Below, one piece after another: positions 8,765-61,894 of a stretch of DNA of 64,000 bases; the first letter of the stretch is position 1, and every line of letters starts with the position of its first letter. The stretch covers positions 2,134,001 through 2,198,000 of the forward strand of contig CP085710.1 in assembly GCA_023823795.1 (NCBI GenBank), written 5' to 3'. This stretch comes from Bacillus sp. F19 (lineage in GTDB: Bacteria; Bacillota; Bacilli; Bacillales; Bacillaceae). The notes under the pieces were generated by a model that was given only the letters and a program-made list of their open reading frames with translations, did no database searches and was not told the DNA's origin. The translations under genes and the position numbers were made by a program.

Positions 8765-8862
8765 TAATGCTTGCAGCTATAAGGAGGTGGTTCCAAGGAC
8801 GAAGGTGTTTTGGACTTAGGCTCTTATTAAACAATTGTTTCAAACTAATATTTAGGGGGAAA

Positions 8863-44174: not shown

Positions 44175-44293
44175 TTTTTTTCATCCCTTCAATTGCATTA
44201 TTTATAATTTATCGTAACGAATGATTTACAATAAGGAAAATAAATGATTATTATAGTTATAATAAGTAAATACGATATAAAGAAGGTGAACAT

Positions 44294-45243: not shown

Positions 45244-45309
45244 TTTAGAAGTGGTTCTCGGGGATTAAGGAAGTAGACACTCTTTTATGCTGAACTGCTT
45301 TTTATTAAA

Positions 45310-45368
45310 AATACTTATATATAAATTAAAATATTTAATTTTATATAAGTATTTTTTATGATTATACT
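45310..45368 (+). promoter_or_regulatory. LysR-type regulon element, copy 1 (acyl-CoA ligase)
   Basis: AATACTTA box at 45310-45317, 17-bp palindrome TAAAATATTTAATTTTA at 45327-45343, TATACT at 45363-45368. Here the palindrome lies inside a wider dyad (AATACTTATAT ... ATATAAGTATT). It lies 80 bp before the ligase start. Confidence 0.72.
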
Positions 45369-45448
45369 TAATTTATAAATATTTTAAAAATTCACAATAT
45401 TAAGCATCCAAAATGCTTCTAGGTGAGTAGAAGGGTGGTGAACATGAT

Positions 45449-46963
45449 TTGAGTAATAATTTAGACGAAAATCTGAAAAGAAGTGCAAGTAATTTCCCAG
45501 AAAGTATCGCTTATATCTATAGAGATAAAAGTGTTACTTACAAAGAACTAAATATGCAGGTAGATAGCTTGGCTGCTGGTTTGTCTGCACAAAGCATTGG
45601 GAAAGGTGATGGAGTGGCTTTAATATTAGGAAACAGCCCTGAATTTCTCATTGCGTACTACGGCATTTTACGACTAGGTGCATTTGTAGTTCCGATCAAT
45701 CCTTTGTTTACCAAAGATGAAATCAACTACATATTAGGCAATAGTCAAGCCAAAGCTGTCATTGCTCACGTTTCTGCAGAACCGAAGTTATCAGAAGTGA
45801 AGAAACAATTGGAAAATCTAAAGCTGGTCGTTTATACCGAAGCAGAGAATCAAGAATGGACATGGGAGCATCTCTTGGGAACAAGCATAAATGTTTGTGA
45901 AAACCCTTACATCGATAAGGAAGACCTAGCAGTCATTCTATACACATCAGGAACAACAGGTAAACCAAAGGGTGCGATGTTATCACATCGGAACTTAGTT
46001 TCAAATTCAGATTCCATTTCAAAATTACTTGAACTCCATGATAATGATCGTGTAGTTGCTGTCCTGCCAATGTTTCATGTTTTCTGTATGACAGTTTGTA
46101 TGAATGCACCAATTGCATGCGGGGCAACTGTCCTAATCCAGCGTAAATTCAGTCCTTCTGACGTGGTCAGTACCATTCGAGAAAAAAAGGCAACCGTGTT
46201 TGCTGGCGTTCCTACGATGTACAGTTTTATCTATCAATTGCCTGAAGCGACTGCGGAAGATTTCCAATCTATTCGCATGTGTATCTCTGGAGGTGCCTCG
46301 ATTCCTGTCGAGATGCTGCATAAATTTGAAAACAAGTATAACGTTAGTATCTTAGAAGGCTATGGACTTTCTGAAACTGCTCCTCTCGTCGCTATTAATC
46401 CTTTAAAAGGAACTCGCAAGCCAGGCTCTATCGGTCTGAACATCCCTGCTGTCAAAAGCAAAGTGGTAGATGAGAACAGAAAAGAATTGCCGAGAGGAGA
46501 AGTGGGAGAATTAGTAGTTCAAGGGCCAAATGTAATGAAGGGATACCTCGGTATGCCTGAAGCTACAACAGCTGCATTAATCGATGGATGGATTTACACT
46601 GGTGATCTGGCAACAATGGATGAAGAAGGGTACATCTACATTGTTGACCGAAAGAAAGACATGATTATTGTTGGCGGATACAATGTTTATCCACGTGAAG
46701 TGGAAGAAGTCCTGTATCAACATCCAGCCGTGGTAGAGGCCGCAGTGATCGGAATTCCTGATGGAGAATACGGAGAAAGCGTAAAAGCTTTTGTAGTCGT
46801 CAGGGATGAGCAAATCACTATGAATGATATTATCCGATTCTGTCAGGAAAAGCTGGTGAAGTACAAGCTTCCTAAACAAGTAGAATTTTTTAAAGAGCTG
46901 CCAAAGAACTCAACAGGGAAGATTTTGCGCAGAGAGTTAAGAGAATTGACTGAAGTAAAGTAA
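45449..46963 (+). CDS. acyl-CoA ligase (class I adenylate-forming enzyme)
   Basis: 504 residues; activates a carboxylic acid as acyl-AMP and then CoA thioester. Motifs in order: P-loop YTSGTTGKPKGAM (165-177), EGYGLSET, YTGDLATMDEEGYIYIVDR (19 residues) with the hinge, GGYNVYPREVE, and catalytic Lys in NSTGKILRREL near the C-terminus. It resembles long/medium-chain FadD-type ligases, but an aromatic or terpenoid acid is possible. TTG 45449 lies 8 nt after GGTGGTG; the ATG 6 nt upstream is followed by a stop. First gene of the island unit, driven by regulon element copy 1. Confidence 0.88.
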   Translation: MSNNLDENLKRSASNFPESIAYIYRDKSVTYKELNMQVDSLAAGLSAQSIGKGDGVALILGNSPEFLIAYYGILRLGAFVVPINPLFTKDEINYILGNSQAKAVIAHVSAEPKLSEVKKQLENLKLVVYTEAENQEWTWEHLLGTSINVCENPYIDKEDLAVILYTSGTTGKPKGAMLSHRNLVSNSDSISKLLELHDNDRVVAVLPMFHVFCMTVCMNAPIACGATVLIQRKFSPSDVVSTIREKKATVFAGVPTMYSFIYQLPEATAEDFQSIRMCISGGASIPVEMLHKFENKYNVSILEGYGLSETAPLVAINPLKGTRKPGSIGLNIPAVKSKVVDENRKELPRGEVGELVVQGPNVMKGYLGMPEATTAALIDGWIYTGDLATMDEEGYIYIVDRKKDMIIVGGYNVYPREVEEVLYQHPAVVEAAVIGIPDGEYGESVKAFVVVRDEQITMNDIIRFCQEKLVKYKLPKQVEFFKELPKNSTGKILRRELRELTEVK

Positions 46964-46996
46964 GAAAATAACCAAATTATTAAAGGGGGATTACTT

Positions 46997-48052
46997 ATGT
47001 CAACCATTTTAAAGGAAAAAGTTAAAGGGCCAGTAGCTTGGAAAGGCACTGACCTGGCTAATGATGAATCATGGGTTTATTATTTGTCCGAGAAAACGAT
47101 TGCGTCTCTTGAGAACGCTTTATTACATGTCAAACAAAAGGGTTTAAAAGCACCGGATTTTAACAAGGAGGACTTCCCGATTTCTGATCTCTCTGACGAA
47201 ATAGCTTACTTTGTTGAAGAATTGGAGAATGGAAGAGGGTTCCTATTAATTCGCGGATTACCAATGGAAAGATATAGCGACGAGGAAGTGAGCATCATTT
47301 ACTGGGGTCTCGGACTTCACATGGGCATTCCGGTATCGCAAAACGCAAATGGTGACCTTTTAGGGCACGTAAAGGATCAAGGTCTTAGCTTAGAAAATTC
47401 AAATGTACGTGGTTACCAAACAAAACTGCATCTTCCTTTTCACGCTGATGGATCTGATGTAGTCGGATTGTTAAGCCTTCGAAAAGGGAAATCCGGCGGG
47501 CACAGCAGTATCATAAGTTCGATGACTGTTTATAATGAAATTCTGGAGAAATACCCAGAATATATAGGAATTCTCTGCCGCCCATTCAACTTTGATCGTC
47601 GTGGAGAAGAAGCTCCTGGAGAATCTCCAGTATTTACATCACCAATCTTTAATTTTTATGATGGCAAATTGAGCTGCAGATATGTCCGTTTATTTATCGA
47701 ATCAGCACAAGCAAAAACAGGTACCCAGCTGTCGACAGTTGAAATTGAAGCATTAGACGTACTGGATTCCCTCCTTCATGATGAAAAGTTACATTATAAT
47801 ATGATGCTGGAGCCAGGTGATATTCAATTTGTCAATAATTATACGATTCTTCACTCACGTACTCAATATGAAGACTATGAAGAACAGGAACGAAAACGTC
47901 ATTTATTAAGATTGTGGCTCACAATGCCAAATAGCCGGGAAATTTCACCAGAATTCGCGATGTTTATTGATGAGAATACGGGTAAACCGGGTCGCGGCGG
48001 TGTACCCGTGCGTAGTAAAACATCTGGCGGTGTTGTAGAAACCTTGAAATAG
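46997..48052 (+). CDS. TauD/TfdA-type 2-oxoglutarate dioxygenase, copy 1
   Basis: 351 residues. Fe(II) ligands His149 and Asp151 (FHADGSD) and distal His286 (LHSRTQ), with 2-oxoglutarate-binding Arg305 in HLLRLW. Such enzymes hydroxylate or oxidatively cleave small molecules. ATG after AAAGGGGG, 33 bp downstream of the ligase. The MFS gene follows. A full paralogue lies at 49501 and a deleted one at 52817. The substrate is unknown. Confidence 0.87.
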   Translation: MSTILKEKVKGPVAWKGTDLANDESWVYYLSEKTIASLENALLHVKQKGLKAPDFNKEDFPISDLSDEIAYFVEELENGRGFLLIRGLPMERYSDEEVSIIYWGLGLHMGIPVSQNANGDLLGHVKDQGLSLENSNVRGYQTKLHLPFHADGSDVVGLLSLRKGKSGGHSSIISSMTVYNEILEKYPEYIGILCRPFNFDRRGEEAPGESPVFTSPIFNFYDGKLSCRYVRLFIESAQAKTGTQLSTVEIEALDVLDSLLHDEKLHYNMMLEPGDIQFVNNYTILHSRTQYEDYEEQERKRHLLRLWLTMPNSREISPEFAMFIDENTGKPGRGGVPVRSKTSGGVVETLK

Positions 48053-48079
48053 TTTTGTTTGAACCGTTTCATAAGTACT

Positions 48080-48120
48080 AAGGGAACACCTTTTCAGATT
48101 TCAAGAGAGGGTGTTCCTTA
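48080..48120 (+). other. hairpin between dioxygenase and MFS genes
   Basis: GGAACACC (48083-48090) pairs with GGTGTTCC (48110-48117), with flanking A/T pairs; it has only a short T-tail. It may attenuate transcription or protect mRNA between the two genes. Confidence 0.55.
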
Positions 48121-48145
48121 TATAGTAAATAGTGGGGAGATTTAT

Positions 48146-49438
48146 ATGTCAAGGACACCAAAATATTCTTGGATTATCTTATTATTTCTAATTCTGACCG
48201 GTATGATCAACCAAGTAGATAAAATTATCATTGGGTTGGCTTCCGTTCCTTTAATGAAAGAGTTAAGTTTAAGTCCTTCCCAATGGGGAGTTGTAGGAAG
48301 TTCGTTCTTTTGGTTCTTTACCTTCTCCTCTATCTTTCTTGGCGGCATGGCCGATTCCAAAAACACGAAAAAAATGTTAACGTGGATGTCGCTTGTATGG
48401 TTGATGGTACAATTTGCCACGCCATTCGTTTCCAGTTTGTCTCTGCTAGTGTTAACAAGAATGATTTTGGGAGCAGGTGAAGGTCCAGCCCCAGCTTTAT
48501 CTACGGCAATCATAGGAAAGTGGTTTCCGAAACATAGACACGGAATAGGCTTTGGTGCTGTTCTGTTAGGAACCACAGGGGGATCAGCGATTGCGTCGCC
48601 ATTACTAATCTCTTTAATCGATCATTATGGATGGAGATCTGCATTTATAGCCATGGGCATTCTTGGACTGATTGTGCTGGTTTTATGGATGATTTTAGGT
48701 AAAGAAAATCCACAAGAAATCGGGTTGCCTTCCATCCATCGAGAGGTGCATCCGTCTTCAACGCTCTCTAAGGTTTCTTGGCGTCAGTTTCTTCCGCACC
48801 TTTTATCTAAAAATTTTATTTTGACCGTTTTATGCGGAGGGTGTGCCTATTGGTTATTGTCCGTTCAAGCCGTATGGTTTCCAGCCTACTTCACCAAAAT
48901 TCAACAGTTTAATGGTCAAACATTAAAACTGGCTGTTTCTTTACCTTTTCTTTTCGCAGCCATATGTCAAGTTGGATTTGCCTTGCTATCAGATCGGATT
49001 TATCGTAAATCAGGAGATATTCGTAAAGCGCGAATCAATCTTGCCGGTTTCATGATGATGCTATCAGCTCTATGCATCTATCTGGCAAATGCAGCGAGTT
49101 CAACGGCGATTTCCATATTGTTCTTCACTCTTGCTCCCGGTTTTGCGTATGTCATTCTATCACTCGCACCGGCTATATTGATGGAGTTTTATTCTCCCCA
49201 AAATATTGGAAAGGCACAAGGGACGTTCATTGCTCTTGCAAGTATTGCAAGTATTATTGCTCCACTCGCATTTGGGAATCTTATTCAAAATGCAGCGACT
49301 GAAGCTATTGGTTATGGATTTGCTTTTCAAGCCTCTTCTTTTGGGATGCTCATAATCGGATTATTGTTTTGGATTGGTGTTCGCCCCGTAAAGCAAAGTA
49401 ATTCAATGATAGAAGCAGAAGAGCCAATGAGTGTTTAA
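48146..49438 (+). CDS. MFS transporter, copy 1
   Basis: 430 residues with about 12 membrane segments, resembling the anion:cation symporter (ACS/phthalate-hexuronate) branch: GGMADSKNTKK loop between segments 2 and 3 and RMILGAGEGPAPALST in segment 4. The start is ATG 48146 after GTGGGGAG; the 29 upstream in-frame codons cross the hairpin and have no ribosome site. Presumed importer of the acid handled by the neighbouring enzymes. A close paralogue lies at 53329. Confidence 0.88.
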   Translation: MSRTPKYSWIILLFLILTGMINQVDKIIIGLASVPLMKELSLSPSQWGVVGSSFFWFFTFSSIFLGGMADSKNTKKMLTWMSLVWLMVQFATPFVSSLSLLVLTRMILGAGEGPAPALSTAIIGKWFPKHRHGIGFGAVLLGTTGGSAIASPLLISLIDHYGWRSAFIAMGILGLIVLVLWMILGKENPQEIGLPSIHREVHPSSTLSKVSWRQFLPHLLSKNFILTVLCGGCAYWLLSVQAVWFPAYFTKIQQFNGQTLKLAVSLPFLFAAICQVGFALLSDRIYRKSGDIRKARINLAGFMMMLSALCIYLANAASSTAISILFFTLAPGFAYVILSLAPAILMEFYSPQNIGKAQGTFIALASIASIIAPLAFGNLIQNAATEAIGYGFAFQASSFGMLIIGLLFWIGVRPVKQSNSMIEAEEPMSV

Positions 49439-49500
49439 AGAGTATACAATTATAGTCCATCAGAATACCAGTGTACGAAAATAATAAGGGAGGGTTAATT

Positions 49501-50499
49501 ATGTCAATTATTTTAAAGGAAAAAATTCAAGGACGATCAGCGTGGAAAGGGATTGAACTAGCTAAGAATAATTCCTGGATTTACTATTTGTCCGAGAACA
49601 CGATTGCTGCTCTTGAGAAGGCTGTATTACATGTTCAGCAAAAGGGATTAACTGCACCTGATTTTAAAAAGGAGGATTTCCCGATTCCTGAACTCGCTGA
49701 CGAAATCACTTACTTTGTTGACGAGCTGGAGAATGGAAGAGGGTTTCTATTAATTCGTGGATTGCCATTGGATCAGTTTACTGATGAAGAAGCGAGCATC
49801 ATTTACTGGGGTCTCGGACTTCACTTGGGGCTGCCGATAATCCAAAGCAAAAACGGGGAGCTCCTAGGGCATATAAAAAACGTAGGTAAAGACTTTAATG
49901 ATAATACAAAAGTACGTGGTTACCAAACGAATGTACATCTTGACTATCACACTGATCTCGCTGATGTAGTCGGATTACTATGTCTTCGCAAAGCGAAATC
50001 TGGCGGTTTAAGTAGTATCGCAAGTGCGATGACTATCTATAATGAAATTTTGGATAAGCATCCAGAGTACCTTGAAATTCTCTATCGTCCCTTCGCCCAT
50101 GACCTTCGAGGGGAAGAATCAGAAGGTCAATCTCCAGTAGTTCAATCACCGGTCTTTAGCTATTACGATGGTAAATTAAGCTGCAGATATATTCGTCAAT
50201 ATGTCCAATCAGCGCAAACGAAAACAGGTATCTTTTTGTCGAAAGAGGAAATCGAAGCATTTGATTATATAGATTCCCTTACACATGATAAAAACATGCA
50301 TATTGATATGATGATGGAACCGGGTGATATGCAATTCGTTAATAATTATGCGGTTTTTCATTCACGGACTCATTTTGAAGATTACGAAGAAGATGACAAG
50401 AAACGCCATTTATTAAGATTATGGCTCATGATCCCAAATGGCAGGAAAATTGCCCCAGATTTTGAGTTTTATATCGGAGGAGCACCAGTAATTAGATAA
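49501..50499 (+). CDS. TauD/TfdA-type 2-oxoglutarate dioxygenase, copy 2
   Basis: 332 residues, clearly homologous along its length to copy 1. Iron ligands His150 and Asp152 (YHTDLAD), distal His287 (FHSRTH), and the HLLRLW arginine are kept. The metal-site neighbourhood differs from copy 1 (FHADGSD versus YHTDLAD), so substrate or regiochemistry may differ. The C-terminus is about 20 residues shorter. ATG 49501 after AGGGAGGG. Two hairpins follow. Confidence 0.87.
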   Translation: MSIILKEKIQGRSAWKGIELAKNNSWIYYLSENTIAALEKAVLHVQQKGLTAPDFKKEDFPIPELADEITYFVDELENGRGFLLIRGLPLDQFTDEEASIIYWGLGLHLGLPIIQSKNGELLGHIKNVGKDFNDNTKVRGYQTNVHLDYHTDLADVVGLLCLRKAKSGGLSSIASAMTIYNEILDKHPEYLEILYRPFAHDLRGEESEGQSPVVQSPVFSYYDGKLSCRYIRQYVQSAQTKTGIFLSKEEIEAFDYIDSLTHDKNMHIDMMMEPGDMQFVNNYAVFHSRTHFEDYEEDDKKRHLLRLWLMIPNGRKIAPDFEFYIGGAPVIR

Positions 50500-50502
50500 A
50501 AA

Positions 50503-50598
50503 ACTGATGGTAATTAAACTTACCATTTTTCTTATATCAAGTGATATGGTGATTTTATTCATCAAATAACGTGAATAAGATCACCATTTTATTTTTAA
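50503..50598 (+). terminator. double terminator after dioxygenase copy 2
   Basis: First stem ATGGTAA (50507-50513)/TTACCAT (50520-50526) with a T-run. Second, longer stem starts with GGTGATTTTATTC near 50549 and closes with GAATAAGATCACC near 50574-50586, followed by ATTTTATTTTT. Confidence 0.75.
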
Positions 50599-50653
50599 AT
50601 GTCGGATGAAGCTGAATTAATTTTGAAATAAAATGAAGAGAGGATGATGCATC

Positions 50654-51601
50654 TTGGTAAATTTAGATCCGCAAGCAGAAAAATATTTACAAGCATTTAA
50701 TCAAATGCCGCCTATTCATAAAATGGATCCTAAGACAGTAAGAGAGAGGCTTTCGAAGGCACCACGCCCTGCTGTTAATTTGGATCCGCTTTCAAAGGTA
50801 GAGGATTTTATGATTCCGTTAGGCCAAGATGAAGAAATTAAATGCAGGGTTTACATACCGGAAGGACAAGGTCCTTTCCCTCTATTTATTTACTACCATG
50901 GTGGAGGCTGGGTACTGGGAGACATCGAATCAACGGATGCAAGCTGCCGAATGATAGCTAATAGAACGGATAGTATTGTTGTATCCGTAAACTATCGTCT
51001 AGCACCAGAGTATAAGTTCCCGACTGCAGTCGAAGACGCATATGCAGCATTGGAATGGGTTTATGAAAAAGGGAATTCCTTTAACGGAAATGTTTCTCGA
51101 ATGGTAATCGGAGGGGATAGCGTTGGTGGAAATCTAGCGACAGTAGTTACTATGATGGCGAGAGACAGAAAAGGTCCTGCCATCACTGCACAGGTCTTGA
51201 TCTACCCTGCGACAAATCTTGAGTTCAATTCGGAATCCCATCAAACCTTTGCAAAAGGATTTGGTCTGGATCGCGAACAGTTGATTTGGTTCCGTGATCA
51301 TTATTTAAGGAATGAAGAGGACAGGTTTAATGAGTACGCTTCCCCCTTGGTTGCTGAAGAATTAAGTGGACTCCCTCCAGCAATCGTGATTACAGCGGAA
51401 AATGACGTACTCCGTGATGAAGGAAGGGCTTATGCTGAACGTCTGAAAAAATTTGGTGTGCAGGTTGAATATGCATGTGAACCCGGAATGGTCCACGGTT
51501 ATTTTGGACACATGGCTATTTTTTCTAAGAACATTGAATCGACTGTTTCCAGAATCGATAAGTTCTTGAGACCCGCTAATTATACAATAGGGATAGATTA
51601 G
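50654..51601 (+). CDS. alpha/beta hydrolase, HSL (Aes/lipase) family
   Basis: 315-residue serine esterase. Oxyanion-hole motif HGGGW (82-86), nucleophile Ser156 in GDSVG (154-158), probable acid Asp251 or Asp255 and His281 (HGYFG). Cytoplasmic. Could hydrolyse an ester or lactone intermediate. The start is TTG 50654 after GAGAGG; two nearby ATGs are out of frame. Single-gene unit between terminators. Confidence 0.88.
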   Translation: MVNLDPQAEKYLQAFNQMPPIHKMDPKTVRERLSKAPRPAVNLDPLSKVEDFMIPLGQDEEIKCRVYIPEGQGPFPLFIYYHGGGWVLGDIESTDASCRMIANRTDSIVVSVNYRLAPEYKFPTAVEDAYAALEWVYEKGNSFNGNVSRMVIGGDSVGGNLATVVTMMARDRKGPAITAQVLIYPATNLEFNSESHQTFAKGFGLDREQLIWFRDHYLRNEEDRFNEYASPLVAEELSGLPPAIVITAENDVLRDEGRAYAERLKKFGVQVEYACEPGMVHGYFGHMAIFSKNIESTVSRIDKFLRPANYTIGID

Positions 51602-51618
51602 AATTAATACATTCTAAA

Positions 51619-51654
51619 TTAAACGAGCCTCACTATAGTGAGGCTCGTTTTTAA
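51619..51654. terminator. bidirectional terminator
   Basis: AAACGAGCCTCAC pairs with GTGAGGCTCGTTT around TATA (51621-51650), with A/T tails on both sides. It serves the hydrolase gene and the convergent SDR gene. Confidence 0.9.
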
Positions 51655-51718
51655 ATTAATCTTATTTTTACTCTATTATTGGTAATCTGCGATACAGTTA
51701 TAATATCAACCTAGCCTT

Positions 51719-52492
51719 TTAGTAATAAACGGTATTACCAATGCCTCCAGTTACTGAAATAACATCGCCAGTAATCGATGCCGCCAAAGGCGAAGCCAGG
51801 AAGGTAACGACATAAGCAATTTCCTCTGCAGTTATCAAGCGGCCGAGGGAATTCAGTGATTCTGCCTGGCGTATAGCTTCCTCATTGGTGACCCGGCCTC
51901 TAAACATTTCCGTATCGACAATCCCTGGATAAACAGCATTAACGTTAATTCCGTGCTTTCCTAATTCCAATGAGGCGGATTTTGTCATATGGACAACAGA
52001 TGCATTACGCGGACCGGAACTAAAATAATTGCCGCCAATTCTGGCAGCCAGACCACTTATATTTATTATACGGCCCCATTTATTTTCTATCATATAAGGT
52101 GCAACAGCTCGGATACAGCGAAAATAGCCCATGTACTTTTCTTCAAAATCTTTCAAAATAAGTTCATCTTTAATACTATTAAAATCCTCTGGCTCATGGC
52201 CGCCAACACGCGCTCCGCTGTTGATTAAAATATCAATGCTCCCCATCGCTGCTGCTGATTTTTCAACTAAATTTAGGATGGAGTCAGGATCATTTGTATC
52301 TGCCACGATCGGATAGATATTTCTATTTGTTTCATCGGCTAGTTCCTCTGCTGCAATCTTTAGAGAGGATTCGTTTCTTGAACAAATCGTACAATCTGCA
52401 CCTTCAAGAGCCAACTGGCGGGCAATAGCTTTACCAATCCCCCGGCTTCCTCCAACTATAAGTGCTTTTTTTCCGGATAACTTTAAGTCCAT
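51719..52492 (-). CDS. SDR-family oxidoreductase lacking the YxxxK motif
   Basis: 257 residues. NAD(P) motif GGSRGIG near the N-terminus, the NAG-like motif reads LINSGAR, and the catalytic-Ser region is NISG. Where classical SDRs have YxxxK the sequence reads SGPRN (before ASVVHMTKS), so both Tyr and Lys are replaced. A C-terminal GDVISVTGG strand is normal. The start lies after TAGGAGG on the minus strand. It is the only minus-strand enzyme gene in this part. It may use another residue or a different chemistry. Confidence 0.83.
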   Translation of the reverse strand: MDLKLSGKKALIVGGSRGIGKAIARQLALEGADCTICSRNESSLKIAAEELADETNRNIYPIVADTNDPDSILNLVEKSAAAMGSIDILINSGARVGGHEPEDFNSIKDELILKDFEEKYMGYFRCIRAVAPYMIENKWGRIINISGLAARIGGNYFSSGPRNASVVHMTKSASLELGKHGINVNAVYPGIVDTEMFRGRVTNEEAIRQAESLNSLGRLITAEEIAYVVTFLASPLAASITGDVISVTGGIGNTVYY

Positions 52493-52816
52493 AATACATC
52501 CTCCTAATTCTATTTAACCACTCGAAAGAAGATTTTTTTGAATTTTAACTCATTTCTATATTTGATTCTACCTATAAATTAGATTTATATAAAGTTAAAA
52601 ATTTTAATTTGTAATTAAGTTGTACTAATATCATTTTGAGTTGGAAATTTTCCAAAATACAAGGGTGTATTGCTTCATGTATATTAATATTACCTATGTG
52701 TAAATTAAAATCTTTAATTTTATTTAACTGAAAATTATGAATATAATTAATATTAACAATTTAAACAGTCAGAAATTTATTTAAAGCGCTTCCCAAAGGG
52801 GGGGGGATATCATCCA
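52493..52816. promoter_or_regulatory. AT-rich gap with regulon element copy 2
   Basis: Element at 52689-52747: ATTACCTA box at 52689-52696, palindrome TAAAATCTTTAATTTTA at 52706-52722, TATAAT at 52742-52747. It directs transcription toward the deleted dioxygenase copy and MFS copy 2. The stretch 52493-52688 shows no gene. A run of nine G lies near 52799-52807. Confidence 0.72.
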
Positions 52817-53227
52817 ATGGTATTAATTGTATAAAGAAGACCAGCAGCGTGGAAAGGTATTGATCTAGCTAAAGATGATACATGGATTTATTATTTGTCA
52901 GAGAAAACGATCGCAACTCTTGAAACCGCTTTATTTCATGTGAAACAAAAAGGTTTGCAAGCACCGAATTTTAACAAGGAAGACTTCCTAATTCCTGAAC
53001 TCTCTGATGAAACCGCTTACTTTATTGACGAACTGGAATATGGGAGAGGATTTCTGTTAATTCGTGGATTACCAATGGAAAGGTATACGGATGAAGAAGC
53101 AAGCATTATTTACTGGGGTCTTGGAGCTGATTTCGCTATGTTTATTGATGAGAAAACAGCTAAAGCGGATCGCGGCGGTATTACCGTGAAAAAACAGCTG
53201 GCGATATTGAAGAACACATGTGGTTAA
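52817..53227 (+). pseudogene. TauD-type dioxygenase copy 3, internally deleted
   Basis: From the ATG at 52817 the frame hits a stop after five codons and then continues as the normal N-terminus (PAAWKGIDLAKDD) through IIYWGLG. It jumps without a frame change to the C-terminal DFAMFIDEKTAKADRGG and a stop. About 210 residues with all iron ligands are gone. The remaining sequence is closest to copy 1. It keeps an intact promoter element and is followed by an intact MFS gene. Confidence 0.85.
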
Positions 53228-53328
53228 CCTTTTTATAAAAATTCCAACTGCTTCATGTTCTGGAAATACCTTGCAGATTTTACGGAAAAATTTCATTAAA
53301 TGGTAGATAAGAAGGAGAGATTATAACA

Positions 53329-54618
53329 TTGAACACACCAAAACATTCTTGGATTATATTATTAATTCTAGTTGCGGCTGGTATGGTCAACCAAGTTGAT
53401 AAAGTTATCATAGGTTTGGTTTCCGTTCCCTTAATGAAAGAGTTACAGTTAAGTCCTTCACAATGGGGAGTTGTTGGAAGCTCATTCTTTTGGTTCTTTA
53501 CCTTATCCTCTTTCATTCTTGGCGGTATGGCCGATTCCAAAAACACGAAAAAAATGTTTACTTGGGTCATGTTTGTATGGTTGGCTGTTCAATTTACCAC
53601 ACCTTTTGTTTCCAGTCTGACTCTATTAATGTTTTCAAGAATGATCTTGGGAGCAGGAGAAGGTCCAGCCGTTGCTATATCAACTTCCATAATAGGAAAA
53701 TGGTTGCCTAAACACAGACATGGTATAGGCGCTGGCGCTATTTTCTTTGGAGCAACAATCGGTCCTGCGATTGCTTCTCCATTATTAATCTCCTTGATCA
53801 ATCAATATGGATGGAGATCAGCTTTTATAGCAATGGGGATTGTTGGACTTATTGTTTTAGTATTATGGATGATTTTCGGAAAAGAAAGCCCTAAAGAAAT
53901 CGGGTTGCCCACATTTGAACAAGAGGATAAGAACGGATTAATCTCTTCTAAGGTTTCTTGGCGTCAATTTCTTCCATACCTTTTTTCTAAAAATTTTATT
54001 TTTACCGTTTTGTGTGCAGGTTGTGCCTATTGGTTATTGTCTGTTCAAGCGGTTTGGTTTCCAGCATACTTTACCAAAATTCAACATTTTGATGGAAAAA
54101 CATTAAAAATGGCAGTGTCTTTGCCTTTTCTCTTCGCTGCCATTTGCCAAATTGGATTTGCATTGATATCAGATCGGCTTTATCGCAAAACAGGAGATAT
54201 TCGTAAAGCACGAGTAAATCTTGCAGGTATTTCAATGGTACTATCCGCTATTTGTATATATCTTGGAAGTGTCGTGAATTCAAGTGTTATCTCCATCCTG
54301 TTCTTCATCCTTGCTCCAGGTTTTGGGATTGTTATTCTTACACTCGCACCCGCTATGTTGATGGAATTCTTTTCTCCCAAAAACATTGGAAAAGCACAAG
54401 GGACATATGTTGCTCTTTCAAGTTCAACAAGTATTATTGCTCCAGTTGTATTCGGGAACTTTATCGAAAATTCAGGAACTGAGGCTATTGGATATGGTTA
54501 TGGGTTCCTAGTAACTTCATTGGTTATGCTTGTTTTAGGATTATTGTTTTGGACCAATGTACGTCCTGCGAAGCAACCTAACACAACGATAAAAGCAGAG
54601 GAACAAGTGATTATTTAA
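53329..54618 (+). CDS. MFS transporter, copy 2
   Basis: 429 residues, 12 predicted membrane segments, a close paralogue of the protein at 48146 throughout (same GGMADSKNTKK and GAGEGPA motifs). The start is TTG 53329 after AAGGAGAG. Its position behind the third, dead dioxygenase copy mirrors the dioxygenase-MFS order of the first unit. Probably expressed from element copy 2. Confidence 0.88.
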   Translation: MNTPKHSWIILLILVAAGMVNQVDKVIIGLVSVPLMKELQLSPSQWGVVGSSFFWFFTLSSFILGGMADSKNTKKMFTWVMFVWLAVQFTTPFVSSLTLLMFSRMILGAGEGPAVAISTSIIGKWLPKHRHGIGAGAIFFGATIGPAIASPLLISLINQYGWRSAFIAMGIVGLIVLVLWMIFGKESPKEIGLPTFEQEDKNGLISSKVSWRQFLPYLFSKNFIFTVLCAGCAYWLLSVQAVWFPAYFTKIQHFDGKTLKMAVSLPFLFAAICQIGFALISDRLYRKTGDIRKARVNLAGISMVLSAICIYLGSVVNSSVISILFFILAPGFGIVILTLAPAMLMEFFSPKNIGKAQGTYVALSSSTSIIAPVVFGNFIENSGTEAIGYGYGFLVTSLVMLVLGLLFWTNVRPAKQPNTTIKAEEQVII

Positions 54619-54650
54619 AAATTATGATTGAATCAAGGAGGGAAAGAAAT

Positions 54651-54845
54651 ATGTGTAACAATAATAAGGCCGTTGATGGAATTGATTGTTGTGTAGATGG
54701 TCATGAAGAATTAGCCATTATAAAGCAAAATCGCAGTAAATGCTATAATTGTCAGTATAAGACATCTGAGACTTATGCTGATGATCATATGGATGTGGAA
54801 GTTGAGGTAAAAGGTTGTAAAACAGAACAGAAAATGAATTTATGA
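54651..54845 (+). CDS. small Cys-rich protein, unknown
   Basis: 64 residues with six cysteines: Cys2, a CC pair near 13-14, a CYNC motif near 35-38, and one near 57. I do not recognise the family. The cysteine pattern suggests metal binding or a redox role. The start at 54651 has an excellent ribosome site (AAGGAGGG), which argues for real translation. 32 bp after MFS copy 2, so likely in the same transcript. Confidence 0.6.
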   Translation: MCNNNKAVDGIDCCVDGHEELAIIKQNRSKCYNCQYKTSETYADDHMDVEVEVKGCKTEQKMNL

Positions 54846-55038
54846 TATTTAGCAGCAAATTCTATATTATGTACCGACTAATTACATATTGTTGGTGTGT
54901 GTAGAAAAGGAATAATAAAAAGGATTATGCCTTGGCGAATGGCTGCACGATTAAAAGGGCCCCCAATAATGATATTATCCCCTCATTGTAGACAATAAAA
55001 AGAAAGGTTGTACTGTCTACTTTGGAAGGGATTTTTTT

Positions 55039-55450
55039 ATGGGGAAAATTAGAAGAACTTATTCAAAAGAGTTCAAACTTAAAGCGATAGATATGTATGT
55101 GAAAAATCATATGGGTTCTACTCAATTGCCAAAGAATTAGGAATCTCAAAGTCAATTGTGCAACGTTGGATATTTCACTATAATCGAGAAGGGTTTCAAG
55201 GGTTAGATGAAAAGAGAGGAAAATCAGATAATCCACTGCAGGGAAGACCAAAAAATTAAATGAAAGCGAGGCAGAAAAAATCAGCCGATTAGAAGCTGAG
55301 AACGCATATTTAAAAAAGCTCTTAGCTGCGAAAAGAAGGATGATCCAGGAAAAGAAAAATCAGTAGAATACAGTATAATTCATGAACTTAAGAATCAATT
55401 TACGATTGTTATTTTATATAAGATAGCAGGTGTTTCAAAAAAATGAAGTA
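55039..55450 (+). pseudogene. IS3-family OrfA (and start of OrfB) remnant
   Basis: ATG 55039 starts KIRRTYSKEFKLKAIDMYV, a typical IS3 OrfA N-terminus with helix-turn-helix. It is frameshifted after about 30 codons, continues as AKELGISKSIVQRWIFHYN, shifts again before the coiled-coil RLEAENAYLKKLLA and ends. A short OrfB-like start follows. GTAGACA/TGTCTAC near 54988-55020 may be part of the left end. 54846-54986 shows nothing else. Confidence 0.8.
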
Positions 55451-55539
55451 ATTGAGAAGACGGAGGCTTCCTTTACAATAAGTCCCAATCTTGCTTGTGA
55501 TAAGAGTGATTTCCAAAAAATCCAATAATAACCTGACAC

Positions 55540-55597
55540 GAGATAATAAAAAGAGAAACTTCTGCGTCACTTGGACGAAGTGGCTTCTCTTTTTTCT
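55540..55597. terminator. bidirectional terminator downstream of minus-strand lysR
   Basis: AAAGAGAA...CGTC(acttg)GACG...CTTCTCTTTT stem with A/T tails on both strands. It ends 3 bp from the stop of the minus-strand lysR gene. A close relative occurs at 58108-58155. Confidence 0.75.
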
Positions 55598-55599
55598 AC

Positions 55600-56505
55600 T
55601 TAACTTTTAATCATTTCGGATTTTAGATATTGAATATATTTGTTGGCAAAAGCCGATAAATGCTTATTCTCTGATCGAACTAACCCTAAAGAAATATTTA
55701 CAGTTGGATGATTTACGAGATCAATTGGAATTATATCACCATTAATCACAGGGGGATAATTTTTCATTACGAAATCAGGAGCAAACGTAATGGCCAAATT
55801 TTCTTTGACGGCCTGGAGAACACCATCCATATTATTTGATATAAATAGTATTTTCAAGGGCTTATATTTGTTAAAGAAATCTTGTACAAAATACTGCATA
55901 AATTCCCCTTTATAAGTGACGAGAGTTTGATCCAGTATATCATGCGGAGATATGGTACCTAAGAATGCTAAAGGTGAATGCTTTGAAACATATACTTTCT
56001 GCTTCCCTTCAATCAGTGCTTCAAAAGCTATTCCTTCCATGTTTACGTTCAAATAAGTTGAATATGTAATCATACCGAAATCAGTTTTATGTTGTCGGAC
56101 ATCTTCAATTACAGTAGAGCCACTTTTTTCTGCAACCTCCAAATTCACGTGTGGATAATCATGTTTAAACGCAGCGATAGCTTTTACCAGGAACGTCATC
56201 AATCCAGGTAAGGAAGATATTTTTAGTTCCCCAAGTTCAGTCGAATTAAATAAATTGGCTGTCTCTTTTATTTCATCAAGTTTTTTCTGTACTTCATAGG
56301 CAAGTTTTAGGATAATTCTACCTTCTTCGGTTGGTACAGCACCGTGTCCCCGCGAACGTTTAAGAACTTTAATCCCTAACTCGTTTTCAAAGTTGGTAAT
56401 AGACTGGCTGATAGTGGATTGAGTTACATGTAGATTCTGTGCCGCAATAGACAGAGAACTGTATTTAGCGACTTCAACGATATATAGTAATTGTTCAATG
56501 TTCAT
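55600..56505 (-). CDS. LysR-family regulator, probable regulator of the catabolic island
   Basis: 301 residues; N-terminal winged helix (about 1-60, with IAAQNLHVTQSTISQSI) and an effector domain (about 90-295). ATG 56505 follows AAAGGGG; the in-frame TTG 18 nt upstream overlaps that site. Divergent from the SDR gene at 56645; the shared gap contains one of five copies of the 59-bp element (56531-56589), 26 bp from its start. LysR proteins usually bind T-N11-A dyads and control divergent genes, so it is the best candidate regulator. This is inference. Confidence 0.88.
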   Translation of the reverse strand: MNIEQLLYIVEVAKYSSLSIAAQNLHVTQSTISQSITNFENELGIKVLKRSRGHGAVPTEEGRIILKLAYEVQKKLDEIKETANLFNSTELGELKISSLPGLMTFLVKAIAAFKHDYPHVNLEVAEKSGSTVIEDVRQHKTDFGMITYSTYLNVNMEGIAFEALIEGKQKVYVSKHSPLAFLGTISPHDILDQTLVTYKGEFMQYFVQDFFNKYKPLKILFISNNMDGVLQAVKENLAITFAPDFVMKNYPPVINGDIIPIDLVNHPTVNISLGLVRSENKHLSAFANKYIQYLKSEMIKS

Positions 56506-56530
56506 AGCTGTACCCCTTTTCAATATTAGT

Positions 56531-56589
56531 AATACTTACTTACATATTAAAATCTTTAATTTTATTTCATTTTAATTTATTAGTATAAT
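56531..56589 (+). promoter_or_regulatory. LysR-type regulon element, copy 3 (divergent lysR/SDR)
   Basis: AATACTTA box at 56531-56538 (within a TATTA-g-TAATA dyad 56524-56534), palindrome TAAAATCTTTAATTTTA at 56548-56564, TATAAT at 56584-56589. It lies 55 bp before the SDR start. Confidence 0.78.
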
Positions 56590-56644
56590 CAAAATCAATA
56601 AGATTTTGAAATCTTAGAATATTCTTAATTTATGGGGGATTAAA

Positions 56645-57433
56645 ATGTCATTAAAACAATTGTTTGATTTAACCGGACAGACAGCAATCGTTACCGGAGG
56701 CGGCAGCGGTCTAGGGCGTGTAATGGCACTTGCTTTGGCAGAGGCAGGTGCAAACGTTGTAGTATGTTCTCGTCGTTTAGTGGTTTGTGAAGAAGTTGTG
56801 AAAGAAATAGAGGCATTAGGAAGTCAAGCACTTGCTCTAGCTGTTGATGTAACAAATCCTGAATCTGTCGTACAAGGTTTGGAGAAAGCTGTTTCTCATT
56901 TTGGAAAAATCGAAATTTTAGTCAACAGCAGCGGAACGGTTTTTGAATCGCCTGCTGCGGAAATGCCTTTAAAACAATGGCAAGCTATGCTTGATACAAA
57001 TGTGACAGGAACATTCTTGATGTGTCAGGCAGTTGGAAAACATATGATCAATAACGAATACGGTAAAATCATTAACATTTCTTCTAGTATAGGCTTTAAA
57101 GGTGTTGACCCTGAAGCTGTAGATTCTGTGGGGTATACAACAAGTAAGGGTGCAGTTATGACTTTAACGAAGGATCTTGCAGTTAAGTGGGGGCGTCATG
57201 GAGTGTATGTGAATTCCATCGCTCCTGGAGTTTTCACTACTGGTATGAATAACCCAGAAATACCTGGAACACTTGTACACAAAGCAGGCTCTTTCATTGC
57301 TTCCCAAGTACCAGTTAGAAGGTTAGGCAGTGATAATGATTTAGTAGGTGCACTCCTTTACTTTGCTTCAGCAGCTTCTGATTATTGTACTGGACAAATA
57401 TTGGTTCTTGATGGGGGACTTGGGGCTAAGTAA
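56645..57433 (+). CDS. SDR-family NAD(P) oxidoreductase
   Basis: 262 residues, classical SDR: TGGGSGLG (17-24), NSSG in place of NNAG, catalytic Ser in NISSSIG, Tyr164 and Lys168 (YTTSK). Predicted to oxidise a hydroxyl or reduce a ketone of the pathway intermediate, with a hydroxyacyl-CoA a possible substrate. The start follows ATGGGGG. Transcribed from element copy 3, divergent from lysR. Confidence 0.9.
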   Translation: MSLKQLFDLTGQTAIVTGGGSGLGRVMALALAEAGANVVVCSRRLVVCEEVVKEIEALGSQALALAVDVTNPESVVQGLEKAVSHFGKIEILVNSSGTVFESPAAEMPLKQWQAMLDTNVTGTFLMCQAVGKHMINNEYGKIINISSSIGFKGVDPEAVDSVGYTTSKGAVMTLTKDLAVKWGRHGVYVNSIAPGVFTTGMNNPEIPGTLVHKAGSFIASQVPVRRLGSDNDLVGALLYFASAASDYCTGQILVLDGGLGAK

Positions 57434-57465
57434 TTTCATCAAATAACTTGATTTCGTAAATTAAT

Positions 57466-57524
57466 AATACTTATTTGTAACTTAAAAATGTTAATTTTAC
57501 TTAACTGATGATTATAAATATACT
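57466..57524 (+). promoter_or_regulatory. LysR-type regulon element, copy 4 (cupin)
   Basis: AATACTTA box at 57466-57473, palindrome TAAAAATGTTAATTTTA at 57483-57499, TATACT at 57519-57524; 93 bp before the cupin gene. Confidence 0.72.
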
Positions 57525-57562
57525 GAAATTATCAAATTCAAAAAAGTTAATTAGCTGACTCA

Positions 57563-57575
57563 TGTAAGCGTTACA
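57563..57575 (+). promoter_or_regulatory. cre-like palindrome before cupin gene
   Basis: TGTAAGCGTTACA is a perfect 13-bp dyad resembling a CcpA cre site one base short. It lies about 40 bp downstream of the -10 at 57519, a position where CcpA would block elongation. Tentative. Confidence 0.3.
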
Positions 57576-57617
57576 GCCTGCGAATGTACAAAACACACAT
57601 TGGAAGAGGGGATTTAA

Positions 57618-58094
57618 ATGAGTAATGTAAAAGATGTAAAAGATATAACAGCATTACATGCCGGTAATGTTAGTGTAGATGAATTGCCTTGGATTCCTTA
57701 TTTTGGAGATGCGAAATTTAAATTGCTTAAAGTCAACCCAGTGACAGGGCAGACGATTACTTTATTATATGTTCCTGCGAAAATGCAGCTTCCGGCGCAT
57801 TTCCATCCTGGAACAGTCATTGTATATACTGTCCAAGGGACTTGGAGATATCTCGAGGAGTCTTGGATCTCCAAACCGGGTGACATGGTTTACGAGCCTG
57901 CCGGTTCCAAACATACACCTTCAGCTGTAGGGGATGAAGATGTTATTACTTTCAATATTGTGGAAGCAACATTAGATTATATAGGTGAGAATGGCGAAAT
58001 TCTTGCCAGAGATAATTGGGAATCATTCCTGAAAAAATACTATGACTATTGCGCGGCTGAAGGAATTGAACCTGTTGATGTGACTAAATTTTAA
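57618..58094 (+). CDS. cupin, 2,4'-dihydroxyacetophenone-dioxygenase-like
   Basis: 158 residues, single cupin domain. Metal-ligand candidates His61 and His63 (AHFHPG) and His99 (SKHTP). The LPWIPYFGDAKFKLLKV start and VQGTWRYLEESW strand are typical of the DAD-like cupins, some of which cleave C-C bonds of hydroxyacetophenones with O2. Other members are uncharacterised, so the reaction here is open. Start after AGAGGGG. Single-gene unit with its own element (copy 4) and terminator. Confidence 0.83.
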   Translation: MSNVKDVKDITALHAGNVSVDELPWIPYFGDAKFKLLKVNPVTGQTITLLYVPAKMQLPAHFHPGTVIVYTVQGTWRYLEESWISKPGDMVYEPAGSKHTPSAVGDEDVITFNIVEATLDYIGENGEILARDNWESFLKKYYDYCAAEGIEPVDVTKF

Positions 58095-58107
58095 AAAATA
58101 GATTCGT

Positions 58108-58155
58108 AAAAAAGAGAAGCCCGGGCGTCATGAGACGAAGAGGCTTTTCTTTTTA
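58108..58155. terminator. intrinsic terminator after cupin gene
   Basis: AAGAGAAGCC ... CGTC(atga)GACG ... GGCTTTTCTT stem with A-rich and T-rich flanks. It shares the CGTC/GACG core and outer arms with the terminator at 55540-55597. Confidence 0.85.
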
Positions 58156-58220
58156 TATAATCAACACTTAATAATTTTGAATTTTTTGACAATGAATATT
58201 TTTCACTTTTGTATATTAGT

Positions 58221-58279
58221 AACACTTACTTAAACAATAAAAGTTTTAATTTTATTTAATTATTACTTATGAGTATAAT
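58221..58279 (+). promoter_or_regulatory. LysR-type regulon element, copy 5 (SDR)
   Basis: AACACTTA box at 58221-58228, palindrome TAAAAGTTTTAATTTTA at 58238-58254, TATAAT at 58274-58279; 62 bp before the SDR gene. Confidence 0.75.
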
Positions 58280-58341: not shown

Positions 58342-59124
58342 ATGCCAACAGAAACAGTTTTGATTACAGGCGCTACTAAAGGGATCGGTTTGAAATTCGC
58401 AAATGTTTTCGCAGACCATAGCTATAACTTGGTATTAGTTGCCAGAGACGCAAGGTTGTTGGAACAACAAGCCGAGAATTTAAAAAAGGATTATGGAGTG
58501 CAAGTAAATACTTTTGCCGGTGACTTAAGCAGCCATGCAACAGTAGAGAGCTTGCACCGGCACTTGAAAAGCGAAGGAATCAACATCGATATTTTGATTA
58601 ATAATGCCGGGGCTGGCGGATTAGGGCCAATGACGGAATTGGATATTAAGAAAGAATTGGAATGTCTGCAGCTCAATATGATCTCGCTCACGTATTTAAC
58701 CAGACTTATAGTGGATGAAATGGTAAAACGAAAGCAAGGTAAAATTTTAAACGTGGCTTCAACAGCGGCCTTTCAGCCAACTCCATGGATGTCGATGTAT
58801 GGGGCGAGCAAATCGTACGTTTTATCCTTTACGGAAGCGATTGCGGAAGAACTAAAAGGAACCGGAGTTCAAGTTAGTGTATTATGTCCCCCTTCAACCA
58901 AAACGCAGCTCACGGAAGGATTGGCCACAACAGGAACAAAAATTTTCATTAAGAACTTGATGGACCCAGAAGCAGTTGCCAAGTGCGGTTTTGAAGGGTT
59001 AATGAAGAATAAAACAGTGATCATCCCAGGCTTTAAAAATAAATTTATGGCTAAATCTGTGGGACTGCTGCCGAGGAAGTGGGTAACCATCTATATCCGA
59101 AAGCTTATCGAGCAAAAAGTGTAA
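58342..59124 (+). CDS. SDR-family oxidoreductase (DltE/YqjQ-like)
   Basis: 260 residues. TGATKGIG (9-16), NNAGAGG, catalytic Ser in NVASTAA and YGASK (YxxxK). The C-terminal part differs from FabG-like SDRs and matches the group often called ketoacyl or long-chain SDRs. Start after GGAGGGG with a longer than usual spacer. Transcribed from element copy 5; the next 279 bp up to the acyl-CoA dehydrogenase show no gene. Confidence 0.87.
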   Translation: MPTETVLITGATKGIGLKFANVFADHSYNLVLVARDARLLEQQAENLKKDYGVQVNTFAGDLSSHATVESLHRHLKSEGINIDILINNAGAGGLGPMTELDIKKELECLQLNMISLTYLTRLIVDEMVKRKQGKILNVASTAAFQPTPWMSMYGASKSYVLSFTEAIAEELKGTGVQVSVLCPPSTKTQLTEGLATTGTKIFIKNLMDPEAVAKCGFEGLMKNKTVIIPGFKNKFMAKSVGLLPRKWVTIYIRKLIEQKV

Positions 59125-59403
59125 ATAGCCATTAAATTTCAATCCTTGAAAGGGTAGGAGTTTTTACAGCTATCTTCGATTGGATTATAGGACGAATTTT
59201 TGGAGAGGAATTAAATTCCTTACCTGCTCTCAAACCTTTAATAAAATTGTTAAAAGTTTCAGAGGGGCAAAAATTCTTATGTTAGCAGTTCATTAACAAT
59301 CCATAGATGGTTATGAGCATGATTATTGAATGAGCAATCGCTCGCCTCAATTACTCATGGGCGAAATAGGATTCAAAAAAATATATTTAAGAGGGGACTT
59401 ACA

Positions 59404-60543
59404 ATGAACTTTTTATTATCAGATGAACATCAGATGATGCAAAAAATGGTGCGCGAGTTTGCACTGAACGAATGTGAGCCTACTGCAGCACAGCGCGATG
59501 AAGAAGAATACTTTGACATCAAGATTTGGCGAAAGATGGCAGAACTTGGCTTATGCGGAGTCCCTTGGCCGGAGGAATACGGTGGTGCAGGTGCCGATTA
59601 TTTAAGTTATGTGATAGCGGTGGAAGAACTTTCACGGGTAGACGCTTCCATAGGGACAACTCTTTCCGCCCATACATCGTTAGCCGGATGGCCGGTTTTC
59701 AAGTTCGGAGCGGAGGAACAAAAACAAAGATATTTGCAGGCCATGGCAAAGGGAAAAAGCATGGGTGCGTATTGCTTGACAGAACCTGGATCGGGATCTG
59801 ATTCCAGTGGAATGAAAACATCAGCGGTACTAAAGGGCGATGAGTGGATCTTGAACGGTTCGAAGATTTTTATTACCAACGGTGGCTATGCGGATATCTA
59901 TATTGTCTTCGCTCAGACCAATCCGGAATTAAAGCATAAGGGGATTACCGCATTTATTGTGGAAAAGGACTTCCCAGGTTTCTCTGTAGGAAAGAAGGAG
60001 AAAAAAATGGGCATTCGCTCCTCCGCCACGACGGAAGTTATCTTTGAGGATTGCCGCGTGCCAAACGACAATCTTTTGGGGCAAGTGGGTGAAGGATTCA
60101 AGATTGCCATGATGACCCTCGACGGCGGTCGGAATGGAATCGCTGCCCAAGCGTTGGGAATTGCTCAGGGAGCGTTTGATAAAGCAGTCGAATATGCAAA
60201 GGATCGCGTCCAATTTGGCAAACCAATTAGCTCGCTTCAAGCAATACAATTCAAACTAGCCGATATGGCCACAAAAATCGAAGCTTCCCGTTTATTGACC
60301 TACCAGGCTGCCTGGCGTGAAGATCAAGGAATTCCTTACGGACATCAATCGGCGATGTCCAAACTGTTTGCCGGAGACGCTGCAATGGAAGTATCGGTTG
60401 AGGCCGTTCAAGTATTTGGCGGATATGGCTACACAAGGGAATACCCGGTTGAACGGTATATGAGAGATGCCAAAATCACTCAAATTTATGAAGGCACGCA
60501 AGAGATTCAGCGTCTAGTTATAGCAGGAAATCTGTTGAAATAA
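59404..60543 (+). CDS. acyl-CoA dehydrogenase
   Basis: 379 residues, FAD enzyme introducing a 2,3-double bond into an acyl-CoA. Signature regions: [18 protein letters not shown] (18 residues), [16 protein letters not shown], and the catalytic Glu in [10 protein letters not shown] near the C-terminus, the position of short/branched-chain enzymes. ATG 59404 after GAGGGGA; the upstream in-frame extension has no ribosome site. Electrons would pass to EtfAB encoded 0.6 kb downstream. Confidence 0.93.
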
Positions 60544-60654
60544 TAGAGAAAATTCAAAATTTAATCAACCTAAGTAATAAGCTGCTAATTTAAAGAGGTG
60601 GAAGAACAATTCACCGTCATTAAATAGTTGCTGATGATAGGGGAGAAGTAAATC

Positions 60655-61066
60655 ATGTATTTTGAAGATTTTCAGGTGGGAGATTCATTCCCAGTTCTGA
60701 AAAAAGATCCGATAACACGAGTTCAGCTCGTAAGATTTGCCGGAGCATCCGGAGATTTTAATCCACTGCATACCGTTGAAGAGGTTGGGGAGCAAGCTGG
60801 CACAGGGTATTATCGCTCACGGAATGTTAATCATGAGGATGTTATCCCAAGGAGTTACATCATGGAAATCACGAAAAAACATTAAGAGAATACAAGTACG
60901 TTTTAGTAAAATGACGTATCCCGGAGAATCTATCGAAATTGTTGGCAGAGTGATAGAGAAAAAAGCTGACAACCTCGTGTTGGCTGAAGTACTGGCGAAA
61001 AACTGTGAAGGCGATGTAAAAGTTTCAGGGATTTTTGAAGCTCAATTACAATCAAGGGATTTGTAG
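60655..61066 (+). pseudogene. MaoC-like hydratase, frameshifted
   Basis: Starts normally at 60655 after GGGGAGAAG: MYFEDFQVGDSF and the hot-dog motif ASGDFNPLHT. Around 60783-60800 the homology moves to the frame one base over, continuing as GSKLAQGIIAHGMLIM and RFSKMTYPGESIEIVGRV to a stop at 61064-61066. Together the two frames give about 137 residues, a normal single-domain MaoC hydratase. Either a recent inactivating indel or a sequencing error. Lies between acyl-CoA dehydrogenase and etfB, where an enoyl-CoA hydratase is expected. Confidence 0.82.
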
Positions 61067-61108
61067 AGCAATCTTATTCTCCAAACTTACATAAGGGGAT
61101 ACAAAAAA

Positions 61109-61873: not shown

Positions 61874-61894
61874 CACAAAGGGGGACGAACTAAC

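Follow-up and report, generated by a model that had tools for sequence, protein, structure and literature searches.

A promoter element inherited together with the LysR-type gene LysR2 in a gene cluster of Bacillus sp. F19, and the regulon it may define

The 64,000-nucleotide stretch of the Bacillus sp. F19 genome analysed here (GenBank assembly GCA_023823795.1, contig CP085710.1, positions 2,134,001 to 2,198,000; hereafter the window, in the numbering of which coordinates are given) contains, within 13 kb, a cluster of genes encoding an acyl-CoA ligase, dioxygenases, MFS carriers, SDR proteins and a cupin, several of which are preceded by one and the same promoter-like element. The question raised by this locus is whether these elements represent specific regulatory sites and, if so, which regulator acts upon them; a preliminary description of this DNA had proposed a LysR regulon under the gene at 55600-56505, here termed LysR2. 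In the current study, it was found that elements of fixed geometry, restricted to this locus within the genome, are inherited together with LysR2, and there is strong comparative evidence that the six elements are binding sites of LysR2.

The element and its restriction to the locus

The five 59-bp elements of the preliminary description were located at 45310-45368, 52689-52747, 56531-56589, 57466-57524 and 58221-58279, and the spacing claimed for them is exact in all five, with 17 bp from the start of an upstream box to the start of a dyad and 19 bp from the end of that dyad to the -10 hexamer. When each element in turn was left out of a matrix built from the other four, it ranked fifth, behind the four training sites, among 127,864 window positions on both strands. 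The count of five has to be amended, however, as the five-site matrix also identified an overlooked element on the minus strand (site 6 in Table 1; match at 52623, 50.4 bits), which aligns without gaps with the other five and is oriented toward the SDR gene SDR1, so that the gap between SDR1 and a decayed dioxygenase copy contains two divergent copies. The three next-best places in the window (19.6, 11.6 and 2.5 bits) each share sequence with, or border on, a known site, and the best score elsewhere is -4.9. Site 1 (45310-45353) holds a longer inverted repeat, AATACTTATATA ... TATATAAGTATT, owing to which the opposite strand scores 19.6 bits as well.

Restriction to the locus was assessed using two profiles, of which R1 is a sequence-only profile made from the six window sites, while R2 was made from the relatives' sites only, these having themselves been found with R1 (all 73 R1 matches, weak ones included). 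Among the best 150 of 3452 candidates in the 5.59-Mb genome, R1 gave six matches of 37-58 bits, none of them outside this 13 kb, followed by a seventh of 12.5 bits (E=0.86); among the best 150 of 6333 candidates, R2 returned the same six at 31-53 bits, followed by a match of 15.6 bits (E=0.106). A similar rate of matches across AT-rich intergenic DNA, which the preliminary description had named as grounds for abandoning the proposal, was thus not observed, only six strong sites being present. Since a limited number of first-look candidates was scored in each scan (150 in each of these two, and 11 per genome with stricter filters in the order-wide scan below), weak sites may have been missed.

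The anatomy of the element was deduced from a logo of 70 sites, comprising the six of the window and the 64 of the relatives' 73 R1 matches that score at least 22.6 bits, an inserted base being dropped in two rows; these two rows were excluded from the counts of symmetry and geometry, which refer to 68 sites. With promoter positions counted on the assumption that the -10 element corresponds to the conserved hexamer and ends at -7, the conserved block extends from about -73 to -4. The primary site, TTARTAAYACTTA, is a T-N11-A motif centred at -64 (-70 to -58), the terminal T and A of which are present in 67/67 sites, and the AAYACTTA-like box described earlier is the right half of it. A second T-N11-A dyad, TTAAAANNTTTAA, extends from -49 to -37 in 67/68 sites, and its centre at -43 displays the greatest symmetry of all centres (mean complementarity 0.786 over seven pairs); the 17-bp dyad of the preliminary description, centred near -40, has a lower symmetry (0.702) and lies 3 bp downstream of this one. 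The centres at -64 and -43 are separated by 21 bp, or two helical turns. One turn further downstream, a third T-N11-A frame (-39 to -27) is present in 57/68 sites; its symmetry is low (0.44), and it can be suggested no more than tentatively as a second resting place for a dimer. The -10 element reads TATAAT, TATACT or TAGAAT in 63/68 sites, while the -35 position is occupied by TTTATT or TTTATA in 52/68, a poor match to TTGACA.

Inheritance of the element with LysR2

The LysR2 product scores above the Pfam cut-offs for an N-terminal HTH_1 domain (57.4 bits) and a C-terminal LysR_substrate domain (89.9 bits). A scan of one genome per species yielded 13 orthologues with 75-93% identity, in records labelled Neobacillus, Peribacillus, Gottfriedia, Sporosarcina globispora, Lysinibacillus xylanilyticus, Bacillus sp. 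and a Bacillales metagenome-assembled genome, and strong R1 sites occur in 12 of these 13 loci, 64 such sites altogether. Counting gene by gene only those loci whose upstream stretch was present in the data, a strong site precedes SDR2 in 12/12, SDR1 in 12/12, SDR3 in 10/10, the cupin gene in 11/13, the acyl-CoA ligase gene in 4/4 and a third TauD-type gene in 7/7 loci; it directly precedes MFS2 in 3/11, a TauD-type gene intervening in seven others. No strong site was found before the genes for the acyl-CoA dehydrogenase (0/7), TauD1 (0/7), TauD2 (0/11), the hydrolase (0/11) or MFS1 (0/4). A cluster gene lies on the same strand no more than 350 bp downstream of 59 of the 64 strong sites. The remaining five consist of three before a CoA-transferase gene pair (L035, L037 and L040), one about 390 bp from MFS2 (L034) and one without a clear target in Sporosarcina globispora (L044, 9484-9560). 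L039, too, has an intact CoA-transferase pair, with a weak match of 17.2 bits, and L038 and L041 have fragments of the pair and no listed R1 match. The divergent arrangement of SDR2 and LysR2 has been lost in L044, yet SDR2 and the cupin gene still have sites; the site without a clear target there is among the strongest (51.3 bits), and the gene toward which it is oriented, some 480 bp off, encodes a solute-binding protein (8169-9008).

The position of the element relative to LysR2 itself is preserved in most loci. The preliminary description had placed its third copy in the divergent gap beside a LysR gene, and the box of site 3 does start 21 bp from the LysR2 start codon; a site faces the LysR2 start at a distance of 11-14 bp in 11 of the 13 loci of the species set, and lies 17-20 bp away (to the first scored base) in 10 of 12 loci of a second, order-wide set.

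The latter set comprised 397 genomes, in which a LysR2 orthologue was defined by E<=1e-100 and an R1 match by E<=0.01. An orthologue was present in 12 genomes, all of which contained an R1 match and 11 of which contained four or more, while 7 of the 385 genomes without an orthologue contained a single weak match each (best E 1.6e-4), about four being expected by chance at this threshold; the association is reflected in a Fisher p of 2e-18, from a test which ignores kinship. The best of these seven off-target matches is that in G459, where a LysR2 homologue of 38% identity starts 12 bp away, and no cluster homologue was present in the 3-kb loci around the matches in the other six (G164, G217, G271, G331, G394 and G430). 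One genome (G159) carries two LysR2 copies, with a site 12-13 bp upstream of each, facing different genes. The species and order-wide sets are not independent, as at least three records are apparently common to both (L042/G325, L043/G385 and L045/G174). Because R2 was built from all 73 matches, the weak ones included, its scores for L044 and the Lysinibacillus locus L046 are circular, and L046 was therefore judged by R1; the matches in L064 (G460) and L057 (G459), neither of which is part of R2, score 28.4 and 23.0 bits with it, respectively.

More distant relatives were examined in the 300 bp upstream of 67 LysR2 homologues with 33-47% identity, a chosen subset to which the motif-found G459 was added. 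A site with z>4 is present near the LysR start in 14/67 of these versus 0/20 control LysR genes (Fisher p 0.018, with a post hoc threshold), and one with z>3 in 21/67 versus 2/20, which would lend weak support to LysR2 as the regulator. Within the genus the region looks patchy: LysR2 at E<=1e-100 was present in 0/4 other same-genus genomes listed, and its best match across seven same-genus genomes reaches 45-47% identity, while LysR1, a further LysR gene next to the cluster, is present at E<=1e-60 in one of eight genomes of the genus, namely the source genome itself. Conservation of the sites exceeds that of their surroundings at the three promoters compared, identity being 0.88 at the SDR2 site versus 0.85 upstream (the LysR2 coding start) and 0.77 downstream, 0.81 at the cupin site versus 0.75 and 0.70, and 0.80 at the SDR3 site versus 0.39 and 0.70, the excess being clear at SDR3 alone.

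A number of observations weigh against control by LysR2. Joint inheritance may in part reflect shared descent of one cluster, and the excess of site over flank conservation is modest at SDR2 and the cupin gene. L046, in which LysR2 is 75% identical, has no more than a weak R1 match (11.8 bits, E 0.092), located upstream of the cupin gene; G460, in which it is 69% identical, likewise has one R1 match alone (E 0.009), before the cupin orthologue adjoining LysR2, and no site directly upstream of LysR2, and a distance of 243 bp separates the site from LysR2 in G260. In 2 of the relatives' 64 sites, both of them Peribacillus versions of site 3, the two boxes are spaced by one base more. Among the distant homologues, a rank test of the 67 against the control LysR genes was not significant (p 0.11), and the same-genus genome G050 has two LysR2 homologues (45-47%) with no site upstream.

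Proposed mode of control and its alternatives

According to a published account of one LysR system (PMC12016517), the customary centre of a T-N11-A site in LysR-controlled promoters is about -65, and a second site is located at the -35 box. The present element has its primary T-N11-A centred at -64, provided that the -10 element has been correctly identified with the conserved hexamer, and its second dyad, centred at -43, next to the -35 position, while site 3 lies between the regulator and a divergent target. The regulon proposed under LysR2 is supported by this T-N11-A at -64, by the joint inheritance, by the site facing LysR2 and by the failure of LysR1 to track the motif. From these comparisons we infer binding and activation by LysR2, an inducer, the transcription starts and a substrate; it is very probable that LysR2 is an inducer-dependent activator of all six promoters, acting as a tetramer through the -64 and -43 sites and likely controlling itself. 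The tetramer would hold both sites, the primary one at -64 and the dyad at -43 just upstream of the -35 position, and RNA polymerase could start once the downstream dimer had been moved by an inducer, which is probably a compound of the pathway. Self-control would be exerted via site 3, which is suggested by the fact that this site covers the region just upstream of LysR2.

LysR proteins are known to repress in the absence of inducer, and LysR2 might be mainly a repressor whose effect is lifted by the inducer; the second dyad does adjoin the -35 position. This we regard as unlikely, as the hexamers found at the -35 position in 52/68 sites resemble TTGACA poorly, which fits promoters dependent on activation. 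The -64 box moreover sits where activation sites usually do (PMC12016517).

Joint inheritance by itself does not separate LysR2 from the other cluster genes, and an unlinked regulator could bind the elements with LysR2 merely being carried along in the cluster. Such an arrangement appears improbable in view of the T-N11-A motif at -64 in all 67 sites, and of the sites beside the start of the 38%-identical homologue in G459 and beside both LysR2 copies in G159, although no systematic search for another regulator was made in the loci of the relatives.

The case for LysR1 (44294-45184) is one of proximity, as about 120 bp separate its end from site 1 downstream, and it is near the cluster in several relatives too. 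Its distribution renders it a very improbable regulator: at E<=1e-85 it occurs in 76 genomes of the order, 10 of which have four or more matches and 66 of which do not, and its best match is on a different contig or more than 300 kb away in 7 of the 12 LysR2 genomes. Furthermore, five genomes of group g28 (G281, G304, G366, G405 and G424) contain LysR1 at 66-71% identity with no LysR2 orthologue (E<=1e-100) and no match, while other genomes of this group do have LysR2 and sites. Within 43134-45184, LysR1 is divergent from a gene of Pfam PF03601, a family which we take to be YeiH-like.

Finally, although dioxygenase, MFS and SDR genes are duplicated in the cluster and every site is very AT-rich, it is scarcely credible that they represent a family of repeats, copies of a promoter spread by recent gene duplication or a chance similarity, given that just six exist in the genome, each upstream of a gene, that the genes behind these six differ, that orthologous sites are kept in genomes labelled Neobacillus, Peribacillus, Gottfriedia and Sporosarcina, and that site identity exceeds flank identity at SDR2, the cupin gene and SDR3.

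Target genes and relation to known systems

The genes reported to follow the elements, namely those for the acyl-CoA ligase, a dead dioxygenase copy with an MFS carrier, two SDR proteins and a cupin, were confirmed, and the sixth site adds SDR1 (Table 1).

Table 1. Elements, candidate regulator and proposed target genes in the window
Feature	Position	Strand	Description
LysR2	55600..56505	-	Proposed regulator; HTH_1 and LysR_substrate domains; co-inherited with sites
Site 1	45305..45368	+	T-N11-A box 45305-45317; second dyad 45326-45338; -10 TATACT 45363-45368; precedes acyl-CoA ligase gene 45449-46963; most divergent of the six, 37.4 bits (R1, genome)
Site 2	52684..52747	+	Box 52684-52696; dyad 52705-52717; -10 TATAAT 52742-52747; precedes decayed dioxygenase copy 52895-53227 and MFS gene 53329-54618
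Site 6	52565..52628	-	Box 52616-52628; dyad 52595-52607; -10 TAGAAT 52565-52570; precedes SDR gene 51719-52492
Site 3	56526..56589	+	Box 56526-56538; dyad 56547-56559; -10 TATAAT 56584-56589; precedes SDR gene 56645-57433
Site 4	57461..57524	+	Box 57461-57473; dyad 57482-57494; -10 TATACT 57519-57524; precedes cupin gene 57618-58094
Site 5	58216..58279	+	Box 58216-58228; dyad 58237-58249; -10 TATAAT 58274-58279; precedes SDR gene 58342-59124
Acyl-CoA ligase	45449..46963	+	Pfam AMP-binding; proposed target of site 1
TauD-type dioxygenase, MFS carrier, second TauD-type dioxygenase, alpha/beta hydrolase	46997..51601	+	Proposed read-through from site 1
SDR1	51719..52492	-	SDR gene; proposed target of site 6
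Second MFS carrier (MFS2)	53329..54618	+	Proposed target of site 2
SDR2	56645..57433	+	SDR gene; proposed target of site 3
ChrR-type cupin	57618..58094	+	Proposed target of site 4
SDR3	58342..59124	+	SDR gene; proposed target of site 5
Acyl-CoA dehydrogenase, MaoC-like protein, two further genes	59326..62863	+	Possible read-through from site 5

The set of ligase, dioxygenase, MFS, SDR, cupin, hydrolase and dehydrogenase genes suggests that the cluster serves the uptake, CoA activation and oxidation of some organic acid via CoA thioesters. The best relative of the TauD-type dioxygenases in the PDB is FrbJ, while the cupin is nearest to the uncharacterised 3ebr and more remotely related to 2,4'-dihydroxyacetophenone dioxygenase. 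The MaoC-like match scores below the Pfam cut-off, and the two further genes behind site 5 are presumably electron-transfer flavoprotein subunits, judging from the translations of their open reading frames.

The TauD-type gene behind site 2 (52840-53227) is decayed, retaining a 110-residue open reading frame with a sub-threshold TauD match, and a full-length TauD-type gene occupies the corresponding place in seven relatives of the 13-locus set. Ahead of it, downstream of site 2, a run of nine G residues (at about 52806-52814) stands in AT-rich surroundings. The gap between MFS2 and LysR2 (54618-55600) holds a 26-residue CoA-transferase B remnant (69% identity, 55442-55519), which adjoins what appears by eye to be the remnant of an insertion-sequence transposase; the CoA-transferase B gene is whole, with a preceding site, in four relatives, and a seventh target seems to have been lost in this genome.

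No description of this regulon was found in the open-access literature searched. The assignment of the regulator to its regulon is well supported and of a known kind, the novelty lying in the members rather than in the mechanism. Somewhat short of an even chance, in our estimation, the locus may represent an undescribed multi-promoter catabolic regulon of several Bacillales genera, with six or seven promoters, a -64/-43 geometry that would permit a dimer shift of one helical turn, a substrate outside the described pathways and sites gained or lost with their target gene, as with the CoA-transferase pair. The findings assign an uncharacterised cluster, present in genomes labelled Neobacillus, Peribacillus, Gottfriedia and Sporosarcina, to a single regulator with a precisely defined promoter code, which provides a ready reporter for inducer screening and hence a route to the substrate. 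As sites and genes are gained and lost jointly, the system is also a usable example of LysR regulon evolution.

CidR and GltC, LysR regulators of Bacillota, are among the top-scoring named NCBIfam models for LysR2, but the scores of 124 bits (cut-off 415) and 103 bits (cut-off 350), respectively, are so far under the cut-offs that LysR2 is neither of the two. In rhizobia, the single LysR regulator NodD acts through the nod box, an extended conserved element found in front of a number of separate operons, and the present system resembles this arrangement, although the organisms, the box sequence and the genes differ. At the level of the individual promoter, the parallel is with BhbR1 of Pigmentiphaga kullae, which occupies -75 to -22 in the absence of inducer and -75 to -33 in its presence, and the promoter of which likewise has a T-N11-A site near -65 and a second site beside the -35 box (PMC12016517). 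The system presented here is distinguished by at least six promoters of common geometry within 13 kb.

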